DNA of 33,920 nt from Verrucomicrobiota bacterium (GTDB lineage: Bacteria > Verrucomicrobiota > Kiritimatiellia > CAIQIC01 > JAGNIJ01). Where the stretch lies: the NCBI GenBank assembly GCA_018823105.1, contig JAHJJH010000021.1, positions 1 to 33,920 of the forward strand, written 5' to 3'. The translations under genes and the position numbers were made by a program. Below, piece by piece: positions 19,772 through 21,055 of the stretch (positions are counted from its first letter, which is position 1; the number at the start of each line of letters is the position of its first letter). The notes below the pieces were generated by a model. The model was not told the origin of the DNA and made no database searches. It saw only the letters and a program-made list of their open reading frames with translations.

Positions 19772-20056
19772 ATGTCGAGATCTCTGAAAAAAGGGCCATA
19801 CGTCGGAGGCCGGCTGTTGAAGAAGGTGGAACTGCTGAACCGGTCCGGCGCGAAGACGCCGATCAAGACCTGGTCGCGCCGTTCGATGATCATGCCGGAA
19901 TTTCTTGGGCATACCTTTGCCGTGCACAACGGTAAGACCTTTATAAATGTTTTTGTGACGGAGAATATGGTGGGACACCGCCTGGGCGAGTTTTCACCCA
20001 CGCGGATATTCCGCAAGCACGGCGCCGCCACCGATAAGACCGTGGCGCTGAAGTAA
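19772..20056 (+). CDS. rpsS: 30S ribosomal protein S19
   Basis: [20 protein letters not shown]..., [46 protein letters not shown]. Confidence 0.98.
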
Positions 20057-20068
20057 GAGAGGCGCAAG

Positions 20069-20701
20069 CTGGATGGGCAGGCCAGAGCGCCGGGGCGCAA
20101 GGCCGGGTGGGCGTTCACCGGCGGTGTGGCGTTGGGTGCGCTGGCCGCGGTGCTCGTCGGCTGGTGGGCGGGGAAAGAACGTTCTTTGATTGGAAAAGCG
20201 GGGCCGTACCTGGAGCTTCGTCCCGGGGCTTCGGAGGCCGGGGAGTCGGTGGAAAGCCGCGAGGCGCGGCTGGCGACCTTGTCGTTGGCGGATCAGAATG
20301 TCTCGCTGCGCCAGGATCTGGGAGTCCTGAAAAAACAGGTGCGCTACCTGTCGGAAGCACTGGCGGTGGTGCGGATCGAGGCCGATTTATACAAGGCCCG
20401 GCTCGACCAGAGCGGGCTGGAAGCGGAGTGGCAGCCGGCCGGAGACCTGGACGGGGAGTTGAGGATCCGCGAGGTCAACCCGGAGCTCCGGATGGTGATC
20501 CTGGACGGGGGGGCCCGGCGCGGGTTGCGGAACGGCATGCCGCTGGTCGTCGTCCGGGAAGGCAAGCCGGTGGCCCGGTTGATTGTCGTGGATGTGCGGG
20601 CCGCGGTGGCCGGGGCGGTGATTGAGGAGACGCGGATTCGGAAAGAACCCGCCGCTGGCGACCGGGTGATCCCGGCGCCGCCGGGACGGACGTTGAGGTA
20701 A
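20069..20701 (+). CDS. Extra ORF inside the S10 operon: predicted N-terminal TM, coiled coil, C-terminal beta-rich domain; function unknown
   Basis: Open frame runs from the rpsS stop (20054-20056) to TAA 20699-20701. Translation (LDGQARAPGRK)AGWAFTGGVALGALAAVLVGWWAGKE...NVSLRQDLGVLKKQVRYLSEALAVVRIEADLYKARL...ELRIREVNPELRMVILDGGARRGLRNGMPLVVVREGKPVARLIVVDVRAAVAGAVIEE. First conventional start is GTG 20126, inside the TM; CTG 20069 follows GAGAGG. The start is uncertain. Confidence 0.65.
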   Translation: MDGQARAPGRKAGWAFTGGVALGALAAVLVGWWAGKERSLIGKAGPYLELRPGASEAGESVESREARLATLSLADQNVSLRQDLGVLKKQVRYLSEALAVVRIEADLYKARLDQSGLEAEWQPAGDLDGELRIREVNPELRMVILDGGARRGLRNGMPLVVVREGKPVARLIVVDVRAAVAGAVIEETRIRKEPAAGDRVIPAPPGRTLR

Positions 20702-20707
20702 GAAGCC

Positions 20708-21055
20708 ATGGATATTGTAGCGAAAACGAGATTCGTGAGGATCAGCGCCTCGAAGGCGGTGGATCTCGCCCGGGCGATTCGCGGGCTGCCGGTGGACCAG
20801 GCACAGCAGAAGCTGTCGTTCAGCCGGCGCAAGGGCGCGGTCCTGATGCTGAAGACGCTGAAATCCGCCATCGCCAACGCCAAGAACAACGCGAAGTTGG
20901 AGGTCGATAAGCTTTATGTCCGGGAATCGGCAGTGGAGCAGGGGCCGGCGATGAAACGGTTCTGGCCCCGCTCGCGCGGCATGGTCAGCCCGGTCTTGCG
21001 GAGGATGAGTCACTTCAGGATTGTATTGACGGACGAAAAACCGTCGGCAAAATAA
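20708..21055 (+). CDS. rplV: 50S ribosomal protein L22
   Basis: AKTRFVRISASKAVDLARAIRGLPVDQAQQKLSFSRRKGAVLMLKTLKSAIANAKNN. Confidence 0.96.
   Translation: MDIVAKTRFVRISASKAVDLARAIRGLPVDQAQQKLSFSRRKGAVLMLKTLKSAIANAKNNAKLEVDKLYVRESAVEQGPAMKRFWPRSRGMVSPVLRRMSHFRIVLTDEKPSAK

Follow-up and report, generated by a model that had tools for sequence, protein, structure and literature searches.

Few gene orders in bacteria are as well conserved as the string rplB-rpsS-rplV-rpsC, and an additional reading frame within it raises the question of whether that frame is a gene, what kind of protein it specifies and why it is kept at such a place. This question is posed by the window analysed here, a stretch of 33,920 nucleotides of contig C246 in a Verrucomicrobiota metagenome-assembled genome (MAG; designated G000, 3.56 Mb in 356 contigs), where the gap between the end of rpsS at 20056 and the start of rplV at 20708 is filled by an open frame in the phase of rpsS. 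The original prediction described an inserted frame of about 210 codons spanning 20057-20707, and both relatives and the ratio of nonsynonymous to synonymous substitution (omega) support a gene there, hereafter gene X. While the frame stood, its proposed extent as a coding sequence did not: the coding sequence runs from about 20069 to 20701, comprising 210 amino acids and a TAA stop codon at 20699-20701 (Table 1).

The 5' boundary required particular attention, as no in-frame ATG, GTG or TTG precedes the transmembrane segment in the window's X; the first canonical codon, GTG at 20126, lies inside that segment, and in the congener G001 (X 58% identical) it is a TTG past the segment. Both genomes, G000 and G001, carry a CTG 12 nt beyond the rpsS stop codon, behind a purine-rich Shine-Dalgarno sequence (GAGAGG and GCGAGG, respectively), and the homologues L009, L017 and L018 have an ATG at exactly that distance. 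Given the conservation of the CTG in the congener and the equal spacing of the relatives' ATG codons, the CTG at 20069 is, judging from sequence, the likely initiation codon. An ATG at 20073 was rejected as the start, being in another frame that stops after 38 codons and missing from the congener. At the 3' end, a GAGG directly abuts the TAA and precedes the rplV ATG by 9 nt, in agreement with the predicted double use of GAGG TAA as the Shine-Dalgarno sequence of rplV. No promoter- or terminator-like sites were recognised on the coding strand inside X.

Table 1. Features of gene X and its flanking genes, in window positions.
Feature	Position	Strand	Evidence
rpsS (uS19), 5' neighbour of X	19772..20056	+	ORF; same function in relatives
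GAGAGG, probable Shine-Dalgarno sequence of X, 6 nt ahead of CTG	20057..20062	+	Sequence; GCGAGG in the equivalent position of congener G001
CTG, probable start codon of X	20069..20071	+	Kept in G001; spacing as in relatives' ATG starts
Gene X, 210 aa plus stop; predicted exported or anchored coiled-coil protein with MreC/FlgT-type barrel	20069..20701	+	
Transmembrane anchor AGWAFTGGVALGALAAVLVGWW	20102..20167	+	Sequence; AlphaFold helix 14-41; N-terminus hydrophobic in almost every homologue
Long helix, predicted coiled coil, residues 61-114	20249..20410	+	AlphaFold, pLDDT mostly 85-95
C-terminal six-stranded barrel, residues 131-202 (~72 residues), conserved family core	20459..20674	+	AlphaFold, pLDDT above 90; Foldseek
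GAGG within the final X codons, Shine-Dalgarno sequence of rplV	20695..20698	+	Sequence
rplV (uL22), 3' neighbour of X, also in clusters split after rpsS	20708..21055	+	

A frame of this kind, GC-rich, lacking a canonical start and seen in a single MAG of 356 contigs, might be a chance ORF or a product of misassembly. A first contig scan with the window protein alone as query gave no match; a single-sequence search detected X in 32 of 57 relatives. The arrangement rpsS-X-rplV was found in 23 of the 25 loci fetched (the window's own included), and in the other two (L016 and L021) X lies directly upstream of rplV, with no rpsS seen within the short fetched locus. When a profile (A1) was run against 289 genomes of the class, strong matches fell in the S10 cluster and weaker ones, mostly of ~300 aa, elsewhere. 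Altogether, about 17 families within the window's class, which is of Kiritimatiellia type, have X at the rpsS-rplV junction. Named records with homologues are Lentisphaerae GWF2_57_35, Kiritimatiellae STCSWMC_75, SV3-B9.1 and RGIG6649, and Verrucomicrobia UBA1418 and bog_1451. Recurrence in relatives, proposed originally as a check, is thus borne out by dozens of independent assemblies, some with Mb-scale contigs, in which the same gene occupies the same place; together with omega values below 1, this rules out a spurious frame or a misassembled junction, whose probability is practically nil. Locus L021 (G037:C1:1735332-1735772) is peculiar in having three TGA codons in the X frame upstream of the coil, so that the gene may be truncated or recoded, and in having no rpsS within 1.5 kb of that frame.

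The distribution of X extends well beyond the class. A wider profile (A3) matched 270 of 394 genomes of the phylum, a count that takes in paralogues, and among the loci opened outside the window's class rpsS-X-rplV was found in families f55, f57, f58, f63, f64, f68, f73, f80, f85 and f86, as well as in bog_1451, a record of unassigned class, so that about 11 further lineages of the phylum carry the arrangement. The f55 genus g118 probably corresponds to Akkermansia, because its genome G305 encodes two GH20 enzymes near-identical to PDB entries 8pxu and 7cbn, which we take to be A. muciniphila enzymes. In six further families (f53, f62, f65, f69, f77 and f82; loci L229-L242), the S10 cluster is broken exactly after rpsS, such that rplW-rplB-rpsS terminates at one locus and X leads X-rplV-rpsC-rplP at another. 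X heads the rplV half of these split clusters and therefore keeps company with rplV.

Absences are also informative. Twenty-three genomes of the class have no match to X and an identifiable rplV, with rpsS-rplV junctions of 14-260 nt, and one of the genera in the window's own family (G002) lacks X and has a junction of 35 nt. Since X can be absent with a clean junction in these 23 genomes, it must be dispensable or replaceable. X appears to be old and to have been lost repeatedly, repeated gain at one site being less likely. The longest of these junctions, a 260-nt gap in G067 (L191:1840-2099), contains neither X nor any long frame and might be a decayed or a regulatory spacer.

Evolutionary rates provide a further line of evidence. 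Between G000 and G001, omega was 0.52 for X and 0.05-0.17 for six neighbouring genes, indicating that X evolves several-fold faster than the adjacent genes and faster than ribosomal proteins. Over 16 pairs of X sequences, omega ranged from 0.21 to 0.64, with a 95% confidence interval below 1 in 15 of the 16; X is under purifying selection, which is the outcome expected for a gene when dN/dS was proposed as a check. Pairwise identities of the X C-domain correlate with those of rpsC across 62 loci (Spearman 0.55, a value reached in none of 300 permutations), which is close to the 0.57 for rplV against rpsC in the same comparison, and X is co-inherited with rpsC. The distance from the X stop to the rplV start has a median of 11 nt and lies between -10 and +20 nt in 47 of the 62 loci, with a Shine-Dalgarno-like motif ahead of rplV in 46 of them.

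These observations bear on the possibility that X is a hitch-hiker, i.e., a gene with an envelope role unrelated to ribosomes that stays in the operon because its coupling to rplV makes removal costly. The tidy short junctions left by losses and the several times faster evolution of the X coding sequence than of its neighbours fit such a reading, but the position is held across the phylum, X remains with rplV where the cluster is cut, and the repeated clean losses demonstrate that removal is possible, so that retention of X has probably been selected. Hitch-hiking is accordingly entertained as a tentative alternative.

The protein itself has a simple modular layout, and the transmembrane segment, coil and C-terminal hydrophobic/glycine pattern recognised originally are all present in the X frame. 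Among 53 N-termini compared, strong hydrophobicity was found in 51 and a positive charge ahead of the hydrophobic stretch in 48; a predicted envelope location is therefore supported, as nearly every member begins with a positive start followed by a hydrophobic segment. The form of the N-terminus differs by lineage: members from the window's order have a membrane anchor, others a Sec-like signal peptide and a few a lipobox (e.g., VAAC in L077), according to assignments made by a simple pattern rather than a trained predictor. The coiled coil varies in length and is nearly gone in the shortest members (L167 and L170), which contain little beyond a signal peptide and the C-domain. This C-domain, with its G-(L/V)-R.GM turn and D/E-V-R motif, forms the core of the family, whose members lie directly upstream of rplV and combine an export signal or anchor with the homologous C-domain.

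An AlphaFold model built on a 15-sequence alignment (mean pLDDT 77.5, pTM 0.46) predicts the two helices and the six-stranded barrel listed in Table 1. Top Foldseek matches in the PDB were an LPHT ring structure (8z5n, 2.1e-4), MreC (9a5z, 3.5e-4; 2j5u, 7.2e-4) and FlgT (3w1e, 1.0e-3), followed by barrels of F1/V1 ATPase subunits, and the suspected C-terminal likeness to MreC and FlgT is thus correct at the level of fold. Because the barrel is a common small fold, with similar examples in F1-ATPase subunits, fold alone gives no function. A sequence search of the PDB returned coiled-coil noise and weak MreC matches only, and no Pfam or NCBIfam family scored above its cut-off for the X members scanned.

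The resemblance to MreC (PF04085) makes it conceivable that X belongs to the Rod (cell-shape) machinery as an MreC-like accessory whose barrel binds MreC or a PBP. Both proteins share the order of a short N-terminus, transmembrane helix, coiled coil and periplasmic barrel (for X, in the AlphaFold model), Foldseek retrieves MreC, NCBIfam MreC models match X at 2.4e-4, which is far below their cut-offs, and the profile of X aligns with that of the class's own MreC (82%, 1e-5), mostly in the coil and beyond it in a stretch around D-G...G-(L/V)-R.GM. However, MreC has two tandem barrels whereas X has a single six-stranded domain, and X is neither next to mreB and mreD nor in mreBCD. The PF04085 cut-off was not reached, the window protein having no match and one homologue an E-value of 0.046 (14 bits versus 28). 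MreC was found in 46 of 48 genomes of the class, whether X is present or not, and no correlation between the presence or absence of the two was seen, MreC being near universal. That X is the genome's own MreC was rejected, as MreC is separately encoded at G000:C312:10359-10811. Moreover, X is matched far better by a paralogous family, A6, and a role in the Rod machinery is consequently considered unlikely.

A6 is a second verrucomicrobial family, of ~300 aa, which shares with X a transmembrane segment, a long coiled coil and a clearly homologous C-domain, and by profile comparison it is the closest relative of X (hhalign, 98.8%, 1.4e-16), with MreC much further away. It differs in having a longer coil, a WNFVVLDIG motif and a gene located elsewhere in the genome. 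The A6-type gene of the window's genome lies beside an asd-like gene at G000:C25:838-1683 (L057; also given as 1243-1686), and this second family occurs in many of the genomes examined (also L058, L088, L090 and L091). In some families the longer ~300-aa paralogue forms a tandem pair (L092, L093, L096, L176 and L177), while family f22 (L094, L095, L163, L164, L165 and L175) has secreted-looking proteins of ~180 aa that combine a coil with a related C-domain and whose genes lie outside the S10 cluster.

A comparable picture emerges for FlgT and the flagellar H (LPHT) ring, in which an exported protein carries the same small C-terminal barrel and which gave the best Foldseek match. FlgT_C (PF16538) is the Pfam family touched by the largest number of members, albeit weakly (4 of 20 at E 0.1 or better, best 0.01); its cut-off was not reached, and the window protein had no PF16538 match. 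The N-terminal and middle domains of FlgT are absent from X, which has a transmembrane segment and a single long helix in their place, and the FlgT system is flagellar whereas X has no flagellar neighbourhood. There is no match at the curated cut-off, and the likeness of X to FlgT is one of predicted fold.

Taken together, X is rather likely to be an old envelope scaffold or adaptor of the Verrucomicrobiota, supplied in step with ribosome synthesis by virtue of its operon position and its coupling to rplV. In the proposed mechanism, the N-terminus, as an anchor, a cleaved signal peptide or a lipobox depending on the lineage, would carry X across the inner membrane, the coiled coil would probably make it oligomeric, and the MreC/FlgT_C-type barrel would be the working part, probably serving as a protein-binding periplasmic adaptor or scaffold. 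Translation of X may be coupled to that of rplV through the shared Shine-Dalgarno sequence. Since neither a promoter nor a terminator proper to X was recognised, and the rplV Shine-Dalgarno sequence lies within its final codons, synthesis of X should track that of the ribosomal proteins, presumably as part of a common transcript. The dose of X would then rise and fall with ribosomal-protein synthesis and with growth rate, as does that of SecY encoded in the spc operon. The gene secY offers a precedent for an envelope gene riding a ribosomal-protein operon, namely spc; SecY, however, is to our knowledge universal and of known function, whereas X is found in one phylum, with a patchy distribution.

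The coupling of ribosome and envelope suggested by the operon position and the Shine-Dalgarno overlap could also be conceived in more direct ways. X is unlikely to contact the ribosome directly where the N-terminus is only a signal peptide; most lineages keep no cytosolic part able to touch the ribosome. It is rather improbable that envelope growth is tied to ribosome production through this one polycistron, with translation and export of X either pulling S10 mRNA and its polysomes towards the membrane or signalling the capacity for export to the translation of rplV, thereby matching ribosome and envelope supply. A related alternative is that translation and export of X act on the S10 mRNA itself, either like SecM, by monitoring secretion and setting rplV translation accordingly, or as an anchor for transertion that brings S10 polysomes to the membrane. 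A predicted exported product encoded directly upstream of rplV and overlapping its Shine-Dalgarno sequence would suit such a device, as would the fact that the link to rplV is the most conserved feature of the position of X, but conservation is strongest in the folded C-domain and not in an arrest-like C-terminal peptide. An RNA element in the rpsS-rplV junction was rejected, as the region has no Rfam match, and a sensor or tether of this type seems very improbable.

No description of a gene between rpsS and rplV in Verrucomicrobia was found in the full-text open-licence literature, and the novelty of the X family is provisional, as the search covered open-licence papers only. The known signature protein of the PVC group, a CT421.2 homologue of 53-80 aa, is distinct from X (PMC3444138). 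For Verrucomicrobium spinosum, a TraDIS study (PMC12283558) reports 100 essential proteins of unknown function, and both targeted mutagenesis and a transposon library exist for this species. X may thus be testable in culturable bacteria, given that V. spinosum has genetic tools and Akkermansia probably carries the gene. The phylum-wide rpsS-X-rplV insertion is a marker of the gene-order history of the Verrucomicrobiota. In addition, the location of X between rpsS and rplV suggests a hitherto undescribed connection of ribosome supply with the supply of a cell-envelope part, and X offers a concrete, testable candidate for the means of matching the two.
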